NCBI GenBank assembly: GCA_019638835.1
Contig: JAHBTC010000013.1
Location: 1-38,609 of the forward strand
DNA length: 38,609 nt
Direction: 5' to 3'
From: Fimbriimonadaceae bacterium
GTDB taxonomy: Bacteria > Armatimonadota > Fimbriimonadia > Fimbriimonadales > Fimbriimonadaceae
Under the pieces are notes generated by a model. It was not told the origin of the DNA. It searched no databases and was given only the letters and a program-made list of their open reading frames with translations. Within the stretch, counting starts at the first letter, position 1, and each line of letters begins with the position of its first letter. Made by a program: the position numbers and the translations under genes. Shown here one piece after another: positions 17,904-24,045 of this stretch.

Positions 17904-19556
17904 GTGGCAACGGTGAGAGTGATCCCCCTGGGTGGGGCCGGCGAAATCGGAAAGAACTGCACGGTCCTCGAACAGGGAGAAGATCTGATCGTCGTTGATG
18001 TTGGGCTGAGTTTTCCGCATGAGGAGCAATACGGCGTAGACATCGTCGTCCCCGATTTCTCCTATCTCATCGAGAATCAACATCGGATCAAGGGCGTGTT
18101 TCTCACCCATGCCCACGAGGATCACGTTGGAGCGCTTTCCTATCTCCTGCGCGAAGTAGACGTGCCTCTCTACTGCACCAAGTTGGTGCGCGCCCTCGTC
18201 AAGATGAAACTGGACGAACGGATGCGCGGTTTCGAGCCCAAAATTCGCGAAGTCCAGCCGGGCGATACCGTAGAGGTCGGCTCTCTCAAGGTTGAGTTTG
18301 TGAGAGTCACGCATTCCATCCCTGAGACCTGTGCGCTGGCCATCCACACGGTTCACGGCGTTGTGTTGTTCACAGCCGACTTCAAGTTTGACTTTGCTCC
18401 GGTAGACCGCGCCCAGACAGATTTGCACCGGCTGATTGAGTTGGGCGAAGAGGGCGTCGTCTTGCTAATGAGCGACTCAACCAATGTTGACCGACCAGGG
18501 TGGGGTCCAAGCGAATCCGAAGCGACCCAGGGGTTACGATCGGTCTTCGCCGCCGCTCCCGGAAGGATCCTCGTGACGATGTTCAGCAGCAATATCCACC
18601 GGATGCAACAAGTGGTCAACTGCGCACACGCACTTGGCAAGAAGGTTGCCGTCGCAGGTCGGCGCATGCAGCAAGTGTTTGAGATCGCTCGCAATCTTGA
18701 ATATGCCCATATCCCTCGTGGCACACTGATCCCTATCGAAGACGTCGGGAAGTATTCGGCAAGTGAACTTGTGATCCTCCTCACCGGGAGCCAAGGCGAA
18801 CCGATGGCAGCACTCAGTCAGATGTCGCGCGCCGAGTACCGATGGCTCAAAGTGGCGAAGGGGGACACGATTGTTTACTCCGCGCGGCCCATCCCCGGTA
18901 ATGAAGGCGTAATTTGGCGCACGATCAACAAACTCGTCCAGTTGGGTGCAAACGTCGTCACCGAAGCCGTCGCCCCGATTCACGTTTCGGGCCACGCTTA
19001 TCGAGACGAGATTAAAACAATGGTCAACCTGACCAAACCGTTTTATATTGCGCCCGTGCACGGAGAACCTCGCCACCAAAAGATCTTCCGGGAATTGGCG
19101 CAACAAATGGGACACGCGGATCACCGCATCTTCACCCTTGCGAACGGAGACGTGCTTGAGATTGAGGACGAGCGTGCTGGAGTTAACGGCACTGTCACCG
19201 CAGGCGAAATCTTGATTGATCAGCATGGTGATGTTGAAGTGACCCTTGACGTTCTCAATCAACGCACTCGGCTAGCCCACGACGGAATTCTGATCGTTAC
19301 CGTAACGGTGAACGCTCACGACGGCACCCTCGGCGCCCCACCCAAAGTCCAAGCCCGAGGATTCAGTGGCGGCGAAGAACTCGTGGAGGACATCGATGAT
19401 GCGATTGAAGAGGAACTCGTAAAGCTCAGTTCATTTGAACTGAAGGAGACTGACTACGTTCGTTCAGTGGTGACCGACACCGTGCGGAGGATGTTGAACA
19501 AGGACTCCCGGCAACGTCCGGAAGTTGTGATCAACGTCGTTCCGGTGAAGAGCTAG
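17904..19556 (+). CDS. rnj: Ribonuclease J
   Basis: A 550-residue metallo-beta-lactamase/beta-CASP nuclease, with 5'-to-3' exo- and endoribonuclease activity in mRNA decay and rRNA maturation. The N-terminal VRVIPLGGAGEIGKNCTVLE is diagnostic. The Zn-binding HxHxDH motif is GVFLTHAHEDHVGALSYLL, followed by FTADFKFD (motif 3). The beta-CASP region includes LLMSDSTNVDRPGW, TGSQGEPMAALSQM and HVSGHAYRDE; the C-terminal part includes YIAPVHGEPRHQK and RGFSGGEELVEDI. Length is full. GTG 17904 is the only start close to the conserved N-terminus. Its TAG stop shares CTAG with the convergent DUF4434-like gene. Confidence 0.96.
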   Translation: MATVRVIPLGGAGEIGKNCTVLEQGEDLIVVDVGLSFPHEEQYGVDIVVPDFSYLIENQHRIKGVFLTHAHEDHVGALSYLLREVDVPLYCTKLVRALVKMKLDERMRGFEPKIREVQPGDTVEVGSLKVEFVRVTHSIPETCALAIHTVHGVVLFTADFKFDFAPVDRAQTDLHRLIELGEEGVVLLMSDSTNVDRPGWGPSESEATQGLRSVFAAAPGRILVTMFSSNIHRMQQVVNCAHALGKKVAVAGRRMQQVFEIARNLEYAHIPRGTLIPIEDVGKYSASELVILLTGSQGEPMAALSQMSRAEYRWLKVAKGDTIVYSARPIPGNEGVIWRTINKLVQLGANVVTEAVAPIHVSGHAYRDEIKTMVNLTKPFYIAPVHGEPRHQKIFRELAQQMGHADHRIFTLANGDVLEIEDERAGVNGTVTAGEILIDQHGDVEVTLDVLNQRTRLAHDGILIVTVTVNAHDGTLGAPPKVQARGFSGGEELVEDIDDAIEEELVKLSSFELKETDYVRSVVTDTVRRMLNKDSRQRPEVVINVVPVKS

Positions 19557-20455
19557 GCTTCCAGTTGGAAGTGCTCTGCGTACCGCCGAAAGAGGTTGTG
19601 GGCGGCGGGATAACACGAGTTTGGGCTCATAAAGTGCGGGAACTCAAAGGTGATGAGTCGCTCCGCAACTTTACTGGCGGCCTCCATCTTTAATCTGAGG
19701 TAGCGCCAGTCAGCAGGCGGGAACTTGATCGGCATATCTCGGTCAAATGACTCCACATTGGACCACACCGAGATCCCGTAACGATCACAAAGCGACTTGA
19801 TGCCGGCATGAAACTCCGGCAACTCTTGATATTGGATTTGTCCATCTTGAAACGCACAAATATCAAACGAACCTTGCGTCGCGTCGTAAATTCGCTCCCA
19901 ATGATCAAATGATTCGGCAAGGCTCATCGTGTCGCCTGGGCCGAATTGCTTGCTTCCTTGCGGGTACGGGGAGATCAGTATGGGAACGTCTTTCGCCGCG
20001 CGACAGTGTTTGCCAATAGCGTTGAATAACTCGATGATATGGGCATCATTCTTGCTCGTTTCGTGCGTTAAATACCATCCACCGAAAGCGGGTGAATCGC
20101 CATAGCGACGGACTATCTCATCTACAAATGCGAGGTTAAGTTCGATTTCTTTCCAGTATGTGCGGCGCCACCAGTAGCGTCCGGAATCGTAGGTGCCAAA
20201 CCAAATCTTGAGGCCGTGCTGCTCGGCAAGGTCAAGGAACAACCGTCCCAAATCCTCGTAGACTGGCAATAAATCCGGTATGGAATGTGCAGGAAAAATG
20301 CACTTATTCTGATATCCAGAGCGAATGATGATCAGATCCCGAATACCGATCCGAGCGTAGAGTTCAAACTCGCGATCCCACTCTTTTGCCCCCCAGTTTT
20401 GGCTCGGGATGTCGTGGGTGATTTCGTCAAGAAACGTGCCCGAGAACGGAAGCAT
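19553..20455 (-). CDS. DUF4434-like TIM-barrel (glycoside-hydrolase-like) protein
   Basis: A 300-residue protein without a signal peptide. Its opening, GTFLDEITHDIPSQNWGAKE, and the following EFELYARIGIRDLIII match the pattern I know for DUF4434, a TIM-barrel family related to glycoside hydrolases. Candidate acid/base residues are the Glu in FGGWYLTHETSKND and the acidic residues in ISVWSNVESFDRD. Other strand-end motifs are HGLKIWFGTYDSG, VPILISPYPQGS and FDICAFQDG. No substrate can be named. It starts at ATG 20455, 7 nt after TAAAAT, and a 9-bp inverted repeat brackets both, so it is probably repressor-controlled. Its stop shares CTAG with rnj. Confidence 0.7.
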   Translation of the reverse strand: MLPFSGTFLDEITHDIPSQNWGAKEWDREFELYARIGIRDLIIIRSGYQNKCIFPAHSIPDLLPVYEDLGRLFLDLAEQHGLKIWFGTYDSGRYWWRRTYWKEIELNLAFVDEIVRRYGDSPAFGGWYLTHETSKNDAHIIELFNAIGKHCRAAKDVPILISPYPQGSKQFGPGDTMSLAESFDHWERIYDATQGSFDICAFQDGQIQYQELPEFHAGIKSLCDRYGISVWSNVESFDRDMPIKFPPADWRYLRLKMEAASKVAERLITFEFPHFMSPNSCYPAAHNLFRRYAEHFQLEA

Positions 20456-20480
20456 GGGCGATATTTTATCTGCCCATGCT
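20451..20480. promoter_or_regulatory. Inverted repeat bracketing the DUF4434-like promoter and start (candidate operator)
   Basis: AGCATGGGC (20451-20459) and GCCCATGCT (20472-20480) form a perfect 9-bp inverted repeat with a 12-bp spacer. The spacer contains the -10-like TAAAAT (minus strand, 20463-20468), and the left arm covers the start codon. Arm centres are 21 bp apart, two helical turns, as expected for a dimeric repressor. As RNA it could also form a hairpin. Confidence 0.5.
20463..20468 (-). promoter_or_regulatory. -10-like TAAAAT, leaderless arrangement
   Basis: TAAAAT on the minus strand ends 7 nt before ATG 20455. Confidence 0.5.
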
Positions 20481-20494
20481 ACTCCTTTGTTCCT

Positions 20495-20983
20495 TTAATC
20501 TTCGAAGTAGGACTTGGCTTCACGGACGGCGATTGTGAACCGAATCACCATGGACTCCAAGTATTCCGTGGACACGCCAGACGAGATTGCGGCATCCCAC
20601 TCAACATACACGACATCATCCTGCACGTATGCCCTTAAGAATCGGCTCACCGTGTTCAGTTCGTTGACCGCATCCGTATCCACATCGGAGTTTTCAAACC
20701 TTGCTTGAAGCATGAGTTCGTGGTACGGGCCCTCGTCCGACTCCTCATCGCCGAACAGCACAGCGACGCCTTCAACTCCTTCCGTCGTGAACTCGACCGA
20801 GACATCGTCGATCACATCACCGACCTTGATATCAGCCGACTTCAGGAGTTCAGAAACGGATTTCGTATCAAGTGTCTTGATGGTGTCTAAGCTCACTTGG
20901 GTCGGATCGGCTTGGCTCATAGGAGCGAGGGCGAGGGTTCCAAGAATTACGGCGGCAAGACCGCTTGTCAACATGTGCTTCAT
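20495..20983 (-). CDS. Exported YbjN-like domain protein (copy C)
   Basis: A 162-residue exported acidic protein. The signal peptide is MKHMLTSGLAAVILGTLALA with cleavage probably after PMSQA. The mature part looks like a single YbjN domain (a type III secretion-chaperone-like fold of unclear function): a helix with DTKSVSELLKSADIKVGDVI, a beta-meander, the signature VNELNTVSRFLRAYVQDDVV, then WDAAISSGVSTEYLESMVIR and a C-terminal helix. It is related in pattern to the two proteins encoded at 22709-24030. It has a good Shine-Dalgarno sequence (AAGGAG, 20989-20994 on the minus strand) 5 nt before the ATG and a candidate -10, TAGACT, at 21009-21014. Its extracytoplasmic location is unlike E. 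coli YbjN, which is cytosolic. Confidence 0.7.
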   Translation of the reverse strand: MKHMLTSGLAAVILGTLALAPMSQADPTQVSLDTIKTLDTKSVSELLKSADIKVGDVIDDVSVEFTTEGVEGVAVLFGDEESDEGPYHELMLQARFENSDVDTDAVNELNTVSRFLRAYVQDDVVYVEWDAAISSGVSTEYLESMVIRFTIAVREAKSYFED

Positions 20984-21008
20984 AGAGACTCCTTAGGTTG
21001 GACGTCCG

Positions 21009-21014
21009 AGTCTA
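21009..21014 (-). promoter_or_regulatory. Candidate -10 TAGACT of the YbjN-like gene C
   Basis: TAGACT on the minus strand would give a leader of about 19 nt containing the AAGGAG Shine-Dalgarno sequence. The 47-nt gap also holds a GGACGTCC palindrome (21000-21007) and AGACTC/GAGTCT arms. Confidence 0.35.
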
Positions 21015-21031
21015 ACCGAAGTTTGCGCTCC

Positions 21032-22045
21032 CTAAAGTGGGAGCTGACCATTCGATGGTGGTGTTAGGCCGAGGTGATCGTATGCTAAGGTCGTCGCGGT
21101 TCGTCCCCGGGGTGTGCGCATGATAAATCCCTTTTGGAGCAGATATGGCTCACAAACATCCTCAAGCGTTCCTGTGTCCTCCCCAAGGCTCGCGGCGATG
21201 GTTTCGATCCCCACGGGCCCGCCACTGAACTTATCAATTATCGTCCGCAAATACAACTGGTCCACTCTATCAAGGCCCGCCAAATCCACCTGTAACTGAC
21301 CAAGAGCATGTTGAGTCAGGCTCTGCGTGATCGTTCCTTCTTCGGCAACCTGAGCAAAGTCACGGACGCGCCGTAACAAGCGGTTGGCGATGCGAGGAGT
21401 GCCCCTGCTTCGGCGGGCGATCTCCTCTGCCCCATCGTCGGCTAGGTCGTAGCCCAGCAGTGCGGCCGAACGTATGAGGATTCGCTGCAGGTCGTCGGCG
21501 GCATAAAACTCCAAATGAAAGTCAATGCCAAATCGATGTCGTAGTGGTCCCGAAAGCATGCCCTGCCGCGTAGTCGCCCCAATGACAGTGATTGGGGGAA
21601 TCTCAAGCCGAATACTCCGGGCCGCCGGACCAGAGCCGAGCATCACGTCCACTTTGCGATCTTCCATCGCCGGATAGAGGATTTCCTCGACCGGACGAGG
21701 TAGCCGGTGGATTTCGTCAATGAAGAGGACTTCCCCAGGCTCAAGGTTTGTCAAGATTCCCGCGAGGTCACCGGCACGTACGATCGCAGGACCGCTTGTG
21801 ATATGAACCCCGACGCCCATCTCGGCTCCCACGATGTGTGCAAGGGTCGTCTTGCCAAGGCCAGGGGGGCCATAAAGAAGCAGGTGATCAAGTGGTTCTC
21901 CTCGTTTCTGGGCCGCTTGAAGATAGACCGAAAGGTTCTCCCTTATCTGTCGCTGACCGACAAATTCAGACAATCGTCGGGGGCGCAGACTCAACTCGAT
22001 CGATTCTTCGCCGGGTTGCTGAGTTGGGTTTAAGTTGCCGTTCAC
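21032..22045 (-). CDS. ruvB: Holliday junction branch migration helicase RuvB
   Basis: A 337-residue AAA+ motor that drives branch migration of Holliday junctions with RuvA. Markers: [19 protein letters not shown] at the N-terminus, Walker [17 protein letters not shown], Walker [21 protein letters not shown], sensor 1 [20 protein letters not shown], and the C-terminal winged helix ending [16 protein letters not shown]. Start GTG 22045 overlaps the ruvA stop as GTGA, so translation is coupled. A 6-bp hairpin at 21027-21044 spans the stop codon but lacks a T-run. It lies between two transcription units encoding YbjN-like proteins. Confidence 0.97.
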
Positions 22046-22662: not shown

Positions 22663-22697
22663 AAAAACGCCCTCGTTCACCGAAATGAACGAGGGCG
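22663..22697 (-). terminator. Strong rho-independent terminator after the YbjN-like pair
   Basis: Perfect 12-bp stem CGCCCTCGTTCA (minus 22697-22686) / TGAACGAGGGCG (minus 22679-22668), 6-nt loop, then TTTTT (22667-22663). It separates the YbjN-like operon from ruvAB. Confidence 0.92.
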
Positions 22698-22708
22698 CTT
22701 CAGATGCG

Positions 22709-23560
22709 TTAGGAACCGCTTGCGACATCAATTGCACCCGGAAGGGTGTCTTCGATGTACCGTCGTACGAACTCCTCGAGGTTGGACATCGCAATACCGT
22801 CGCCAATCCAGAGATCGTCCTCAATTCGAACTACGCCGTCACTATCCGCATAGTACATGCGACCGAACCGCGTGTTCCAGTTCCACTCGTTGATGGCGTC
22901 CATGTCCGGGTCTTCGTTCGCGACGTCCACTTGGAACATGAGGTCGTTGTCGTCATAGAAGAAAAGGTGGCACACGTTGCCGTCTTCATCCTCCCATGAA
23001 AGGTCACCCTCGTCGTTTTCCTCAGCGTCAATTCCGTACTCAACGAGGATGTCCATCATCATTTCGGCATCAACGCTGCGCACCATCTCGCTTGACGGCA
23101 CGCCCGAAAGAATCATTTCCATGACCGATGGCGTGTCGTTGATGAACTGCTCTACGATGGCGCTGACATTGTTTCGGCTAATGCCACCGTCCGCGTCCAC
23201 GTCAACTTCAAAGTAGGCCGTGCCTTCGCTGTAATATGCGCGACCATTTCTGCTCATCGTGTTCCAATCGTTGGCCGCTTCCCAAGATCCGTCGCCTTCC
23301 TTGATCGCTTGCAGCATCATATTGGTGGTGACCTCCGAATCTTCGTCATCATCTGGTAGATAAAAATATGCGGAGAACGTGGTGCCGTCCTCCCCTTCCC
23401 AGGTGATCATGTCGTCAGCGACCTCGACCTCTTCGCCGAGATCTTCGAAAATCTCAGCAACCTTCTCTGCTTCAAGCGTCGTCCAGATCGGATTGTCCTG
23501 AGCAATGTGAGCGGGCACAACTGAGGCCGCCATCAAAATGGCCGAGGCGAAGATGCTCAT
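22709..23560 (-). CDS. Exported protein with two tandem YbjN-like domains (copy B)
   Basis: A 283-residue exported, very acidic protein. A short signal sequence, MSIFASAILMAASVVPAHIA, is followed by two YbjN-like domains in tandem. Domain 1 (about 25-150) has VAEIFEDLGEEVEVADDMIT and the signature AANDWNTMSRNGRAYYSEGT. Domain 2 (about 155-280) has MMMDILVEYGIDAEENDEGD, VCHLFFYDDNDLMFQ and the signature AINEWNWNTRFGRMYYADSD, then LEEFVRRYIEDTLPGAID. The two halves look like an internal duplication. The ATG overlaps the stop of copy A (TAATG), so translation is coupled. A strong terminator follows. The function is unknown; E. coli YbjN is linked to stress and motility control but is not exported. 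Confidence 0.72.
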   Translation of the reverse strand: MSIFASAILMAASVVPAHIAQDNPIWTTLEAEKVAEIFEDLGEEVEVADDMITWEGEDGTTFSAYFYLPDDDEDSEVTTNMMLQAIKEGDGSWEAANDWNTMSRNGRAYYSEGTAYFEVDVDADGGISRNNVSAIVEQFINDTPSVMEMILSGVPSSEMVRSVDAEMMMDILVEYGIDAEENDEGDLSWEDEDGNVCHLFFYDDNDLMFQVDVANEDPDMDAINEWNWNTRFGRMYYADSDGVVRIEDDLWIGDGIAMSNLEEFVRRYIEDTLPGAIDVASGS

Positions 23561-24030
23561 TACTCTTCACCCCACAAGAAGGACTTTACTTCCGCTGCTG
23601 TCTTCTGGAATCGGGTAACTGCTTTCTTGATCGAACCGACGGTTACGCCTCCCCGGGCAATCAAATCGTGCTCAACATAGACCGTCTCATCGATCGCATA
23701 AACGCGTCCAAACCGACTGGCAACGTTCCAGTCATGTGCATCAGACTCACTCTCCAGCCCTTTCTCGATCGTTGCGCTCATGAATAGTTCGCTCATGTTG
23801 CCGTCTTCGTCCTCAATAGGCGAGAGACTAAAGGAGAAATCTCCCTCTTCCCAAACGTAAGACCCTTCTTCATCAGCGAGTTTGATGTTCAAGTCATTGA
23901 GGACCTGCTCCATCACTCGAGGCGTGAACTCTTCAACCAAACGCTGGTCTTGAGCGATTAAGTCGGCATTTGCCCAACTGTTCGCCGCAACCAGCAACAA
24001 AGCGGCAAGTGCCGCAACTTTTCCATGCAT
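23560..24030 (-). CDS. Exported YbjN-like domain protein (copy A)
   Basis: A 156-residue exported acidic protein with one YbjN-like domain. ATG 24030 gives a clear signal peptide (MHGKVAALAALLLVAANSWA); an in-frame TTG upstream (24045) is less likely. The mature part holds FTPRVMEQVLNDLNIKLADE, a beta-meander with EEGDFSFSLSPIEDEDGN, the signature DAHDWNVASRFGRVYAIDET, then LIARGGVTVGSIKKAVTRFQ and the C-terminal helix AAEVKSFLWGEE, which resembles the end of copy C (REAKSYFED). It is the first gene of a two-gene unit with copy B. An ECF-sigma-like promoter and two inverted repeats lie in the upstream gap. Confidence 0.7.
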   Translation of the reverse strand: MHGKVAALAALLLVAANSWANADLIAQDQRLVEEFTPRVMEQVLNDLNIKLADEEGSYVWEEGDFSFSLSPIEDEDGNMSELFMSATIEKGLESESDAHDWNVASRFGRVYAIDETVYVEHDLIARGGVTVGSIKKAVTRFQKTAAEVKSFLWGEE

Positions 24031-24045
24031 GGGTAATCCCTTCAA

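Follow-up and report, generated by a model that had tools for sequence, protein, structure and literature searches.

The perfect inverted repeat at 20451-20480 of the window (the whole 38,609-nucleotide stretch of Fimbriimonadaceae DNA that was analysed) overlies what looks to be an ordinary leaderless promoter of a DUF4434 gene. The repeat itself is most likely a neutral, lineage-specific palindrome, a reading to which we assign a probability of roughly 0.58. The leaderless promoter is the part that stands up, and the palindrome in itself probably matters little.

The earlier note described a perfect 9-bp inverted repeat, AGCATGGGC-N12-GCCCATGCT, with arm centres 21 bp apart, and this was confirmed exactly at 20451-20480. 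Read on the minus strand, the repeat is AGCATGGGC-AGATAAAATATC-GCCCATGCT, with a 12-nt spacer. The features of the locus are as follows.

19553..20455, minus strand: DUF4434 gene, 300 aa, Pfam match to PF14488
20453..20455, minus strand: ATG start codon of the DUF4434 gene and predicted +1 (putatively leaderless); N-terminus MLPFSGTF
20451..20459, minus strand: right arm (in minus-strand order), GCCCATGCT, holding the DUF4434 ATG and the two bases after it
20460..20471, minus strand: spacer, AGATAAAATATC, where GATA/TATC contributes 4 more pairs on RNA folding, for 13 in all and one bulged A
20463..20468, minus strand: −10 element TAAAAT, inside the spacer; the ATG lies 13 nt downstream of its first base
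20472..20480, minus strand: left arm, AGCATGGGC, upstream of the −10
20482..20488, minus strand: SD-like AAAGGAG, followed after 4 nt by an ATG (20477) and after 26 nt by the DUF4434 ATG
20477-20466, minus strand: mini-ORF of 3 codons, its ATG 22 nt from the DUF4434 ATG and out of frame with it
20495..20983, minus strand: co-directional upstream gene of the YbjN family, its stop codon ending 39 nt before the DUF4434 ATG

It had also been proposed that the arms enclose both the −10 and the transcription start. This holds for TAAAAT, which lies in the spacer, but the DUF4434 ATG (20455-20453) sits in the right arm, which puts the likely +1 there and not between the arms. At 26 nt, AAAGGAG is by itself too far from this ATG, and the hairpin could bring it nearer.

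The assignment of the gene to DUF4434 is supported by the Pfam match (6.1e-61), and the closest solved structure by sequence is 4h41, 'putative alpha-L-fucosidase' (4.8e-78). The nearest named match to the protein comes from Armatimonadetes bacterium Uphvl-Ar2, at 77% identity. The 45 best DUF4434 loci (61-77% identity) carry titles such as Armatimonadetes/Armatimonadota, Fimbriimonadaceae, Fimbriimonas and Chthonomonas, or plain 'bacterium', and the matches ranking below them have mostly Bacteroidota-type titles at 40-49% identity. A search of the open literature for DUF4434 by name returned no paper. At one locus in a same-genus genome (L035, G002:C26 37145-37883), the DUF4434 orthologue matches as two adjacent pieces with about 50 residues skipped, and this copy looks broken or mis-assembled.

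The DUF4434 gene looks leaderless because TAAAAT stands at the distance at which TANNNT peaks across the genome, and because the signal recurs at the starts of orthologues; on both counts the earlier choice of TAAAAT as the −10 is well supported. Among 711 first-ATG starts, TANNNT lies 12 and 13 nt before the start in 39 and 28 cases respectively, where positions 22-50 nt average 6.48 each, and the histogram has a shoulder at 15-18 nt (24, 13, 11 and 15 of the 711). These starts come from a sample of 141 stretches (1,092,784 of 2,742,185 bp, about 40% of the genome), which also provided the leaderless sites and spanning palindromes discussed below. In a smaller sample of 61 stretches and 500,423 bp, used as well for the repeat count and the hairpin ranks, the same two distances account for 21 and 12 of 280 starts. 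Start regions of orthologues that were identical over 60 nt were counted once, and loci lacking the anchor motif or having too little upstream DNA were dropped. TANNNT occurs 11-14 nt before a start codon in 29 of the 64 regions kept, the window's included, while 35 lack it under this strict rule. The wider orthologue set comprised 95 rows; G001 was lost from it in deduplication and is covered by the other orthologue comparisons.

The larger sample yielded 116 candidate leaderless-type sites among 869 ORFs; starts were called by simple ORF rules with no gene finder, so that any single start is approximate and some sites among the 116 will be chance occurrences. Leaderless genes thus appear, from sequence, to be common in this genome, and the leaderless nature of the DUF4434 gene is well supported, with its transcription start predicted. 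A simple sigma-70 scan of 19500-21100 found no −35/−10 pair for the gene, as expected because the promoter would be of the −10-only kind.

Based on this, RNA polymerase would use TAAAAT as the −10 of the gene's own promoter. We infer that transcription starts at the A of the ATG or within 1-2 bases of it, which would give an mRNA with no 5' leader. The repeat would overlie this promoter because GCCCATGCT around the start happens to be mirrored upstream of the −10, an arrangement that is most likely neutral and probably originated within this lineage. The left arm would be untranscribed in the leaderless mRNA, so that no hairpin would form.

The arrangement resembles the leaderless (TA-led) genes of Deinococcus-Thermus, as far as these are covered in the accessible text of two papers (PMC12340547, PMC3160421). 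In the former, Zhong et al. report that an ORF-adjacent −10 is common in that group, and in the latter, Zheng et al. regard genes with a TA-like signal some 10-12 bp upstream as leaderless. The likeness lies in TANNNT about 12-13 nt before the start and a genome-wide peak at that distance. The present case differs from the accessible accounts in its host, a member of the Fimbriimonadaceae, in a start predicted from sequence, and in an SD-like stretch further upstream. The accessible part of a 2024 survey (PMC10783764) gives SD-bearing mRNAs as 25% in Fimbriimonadia versus 70% in Chthonomonadetes. We found no description of leaderless genes in Armatimonadota in the open literature searched, where the accessible part of that survey offers the SD percentage only. 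If leaderless genes are indeed common, this matters for calling gene starts and promoters in Armatimonadota, and −10 elements may be locatable from sequence alone through comparison of orthologues.

The repeat did not recur when the genome was searched for further copies, as the earlier note had suggested doing. The assembly (207 contigs, 97.84% complete) holds no other site at up to two mismatches, and the four sites at three mismatches all lie inside ORFs of at least 100 aa. Nor is the repeat present, at up to one mismatch, in the 84 other genomes of the family (85 were searched, the window's own included). A lineage quirk is likelier than a control switch because no second copy was found. 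A mobile or dispersed repeat was considered separately and rejected, there being no second copy at up to two mismatches in the assembly or one in the family.

Conservation at the gene itself gave a similar outcome, the arms being missing in both same-genus DUF4434 orthologues. In each relative a GTG start is preceded, at 11 nt, by TAAACT, with neither arm and no hairpin at the same place, and both start regions lack the window's ATG at 20477 and its AAAGGAG. More widely, an ATG stands at the window's start position in 7 of the 29 other DUF4434 loci, and 6 of these read ML(P/R)..GTF. In two related genomes (L050 and L097), a perfect 10-bp repeat, TCCGGTCAAT-N6-ATTGACCGGA, lies over the start codon of the DUF4434 orthologue, its sequence unlike the window's. 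The other repeat over the same gene at these two loci, like the palindrome richness of leaderless-type promoters, counts against a purely neutral reading and lends a hairpin or operator role some probability.

This richness was quantified in several ways. The window has 7 distinct places with a perfect repeat of at least 9 bp per arm and a spacer of 3-20, and the 500,423-bp sample has 88; under a Markov-1 model of the window the average is 2.58, and 7 is reached in 2 of 100 simulations. Repeats of 9 bp are therefore above a simple random model yet frequent, and the one at 20451-20480 is just one of seven. As a repeat it is unremarkable; less ordinary is that it stands over a promoter. Five of 337 starts, that of the DUF4434 gene included, lie inside a repeat, where simple arithmetic predicts about 1.8.

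For palindromes spanning a start, expectations were taken from shuffles or from re-paired halves of different promoters. Arms of at least 9 bp span 2 of the 116 leaderless-type starts (the window site and L184) against 0.1-0.25 expected, the expectation being 0.1-0.18 for a junction at −5; when the junction is set at −3, the count is 1 of 116 against 0.1. At a −5 junction, arms of at least 6 bp span 16 of 116 against 6.0-7.0 expected. Two of these 16 rows are a single place read on both strands (L250), and another is the window site, which had prompted the test. Arms of at least 7 bp at this junction span 6 of 116 against 1.5-2.1. Junctions at −8 and −3 gave 12 against 6.7 and 14 against 6.2. 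The 241 SD-led starts have no excess at −5 (10 against 14.5, and 4 against 4.3), and at −20 they have one for arms of at least 6 bp (26 against 17.0) with none at 7 bp (5 against 5.0). At leaderless-type sites the excess is as large with the junction at −30 (18 against 7.5 and 10 against 2.6), and it is reversed at +15 in the coding sequence (3 against 8.1). The excess thus extends upstream, so that the upstream intergenic DNA as a whole is palindrome-rich. Palindromes that span leaderless-type starts are over-represented in this genome, and pure chance is therefore not the whole story for this class.

The palindromes known at leaderless-type starts form a mixed set, comprising a stem at L184, a divergent pair at L250 and others with no explanation, among them one at 1879-1901 of the window. 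There, TCATGCG-N9-CGCATGA encloses TAAACT and its right arm holds the ATG that opens a plus-strand ORF, a layout matching that at 20451-20480; this look-alike is downstream of a tRNA gene (1760-1833). At L184 (4244-4281, minus strand), a long stem followed by TTTT encloses a leaderless-type −10, TAGAAT, together with the start codon of an 839-aa ORF, so that a terminator-like hairpin and a promoter occupy the same bases. The stem begins some 35 nt downstream of 4317, where an 89-aa ORF on the same strand ends; by eye, this ORF resembles ribosomal protein S20. At L250 (6439-6456), divergent ORFs have leaderless-type starts common to one 18-bp inverted repeat with 6-bp arms.

Folded as RNA, the repeat at 20451-20480 gives a 13-pair hairpin of −18.3 kcal/mol with one bulged A, built from the arms and GATA/TATC. 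Its z-score is −5.96 against shuffles of the same 34 nt and −2.86 in 111 nt of context, whereas the presumed leaderless mRNA has no unusual structure over its first 50 nt (z 0.48). Among hairpins of the window that reach −15 kcal/mol, on either strand, this one is 27th by energy; in the 500,423-bp sample it is 274th of 1232, and so is not exceptional for the genome. Two further observations count against neutrality: the number of 9-bp repeats in the window exceeds 98 of 100 simulations, and shuffled versions of the hairpin are far less stable than the hairpin itself. An intrinsic terminator was considered for the site and rejected, as the stem is followed by TCCGTTCT, with no T-run, and the terminator scan gives nothing there. 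An Rfam scan of the window at gathering thresholds returned four tRNA matches, none of them at the repeat.

The main rivals to a neutral palindrome are insulation at the RNA level and a local operator, followed by a bidirectional promoter and then by an SD-led start. According to the first of these, read-through transcripts from the ruvA-ruvB-ybjN side would fold the full hairpin and bury the DUF4434 start codon, perhaps with weak termination; with the start codon buried in read-through RNA, only the short leaderless mRNA would be translated. A co-directional gene does end 39 nt upstream, and the −18.3 kcal/mol hairpin pairs the start codon, with the presumed leaderless mRNA lacking such structure. 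L184, with its leaderless-type start inside a stem followed by TTTT, demonstrates that nesting of this kind occurs. At the DUF4434 gene, however, no T-run follows the hairpin, the terminator scan is empty, and the same-genus start regions have no hairpin; we regard insulation as unlikely. The operator proposal, in which a dimeric protein would bind both arms and block RNA polymerase, was put forward in the earlier note as a sugar-responsive LacI/GntR-type site. That note had named uniqueness in the genome and lack of conservation upstream of orthologues as the outcome that speaks against a repressor site, and both were found as far as the genome, family and orthologue comparisons reached, leaving the LacI/GntR version unsupported. 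Like operators of these families placed over −10/+1, the repeat covers the −10 and the likely transcription start with perfect arms, palindromes are enriched around leaderless-type promoters, and the genome has three LacI-domain loci (C13, C20, C146) and one GntR-domain locus (C101) just over the cut-off (28.6 bits against 27). Unlike such operators, it is a single copy, both in the assembly at up to two mismatches and across the 85 family genomes at up to one, and it is absent from the same-genus orthologues. A distance of 21 bp between arm centres exceeds what is usual for dimers of LacI or GntR, and a domain search of the genome's contigs placed no LacI/GntR-domain locus on the window's own contig (C35). 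As a species-specific candidate site for one gene, an operator is improbable.

A symmetric bidirectional promoter would explain the symmetry differently, as an A+T-rich centre with a −10 on both strands and the mirrored plus-strand ATG as a leaderless antisense start. Hexamers resembling a −10 do stand on both strands around one centre, TAAAAT on the minus and TATTTT on the plus, as in the pseudo-symmetrical bidirectional promoters of E. coli described in the accessible part of PMC12825309; TATTTT begins 14 nt before the plus-strand ATG at 20476, and the divergent leaderless-type pair at L250 shares one inverted repeat in the same genome. The divergent side here, unlike in the accessible description of those promoters, is an ORF of just 20 codons, antisense into ybjN, and with the repeat not conserved we regard this explanation as very unlikely. 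Least probable of all, to the point where we give it little weight, is that AAAGGAG and the ATG at 20477 are the real signal and the leaderless reading is wrong, through a frame disruption either real or made by assembly. A good SD does stand 4 nt before that ATG, but the reading frame from 20477 runs for 3 codons only and does not match the frame of the DUF4434 gene, several orthologues have an ATG at the window's position, and the same-genus start regions have neither the ATG at 20477 nor AAAGGAG. We also considered, as a doubtful proposition on a par with the operator, that palindromes over leaderless −10/start regions are a real class of control element in Fimbriimonadaceae, which would silence transcripts carrying upstream RNA, by burying their start codon in a hairpin, and leave the leaderless mRNA free. 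If this were true, expression would depend strictly on the local promoter, and the members would be the window site, L184, the 1879-1901 look-alike and the 10-bp repeat of L050/L097.

Upstream of the DUF4434 gene, three YbjN-family genes are clustered around ruvA-ruvB in the window (20495-20983, 22709-23560 and 23560-24045). Between a YbjN gene and ruvA, at 22665-22700, lies a 15-nt inverted repeat that is 93% complementary; it is the second strongest hairpin of the window by energy and is perhaps a terminator.
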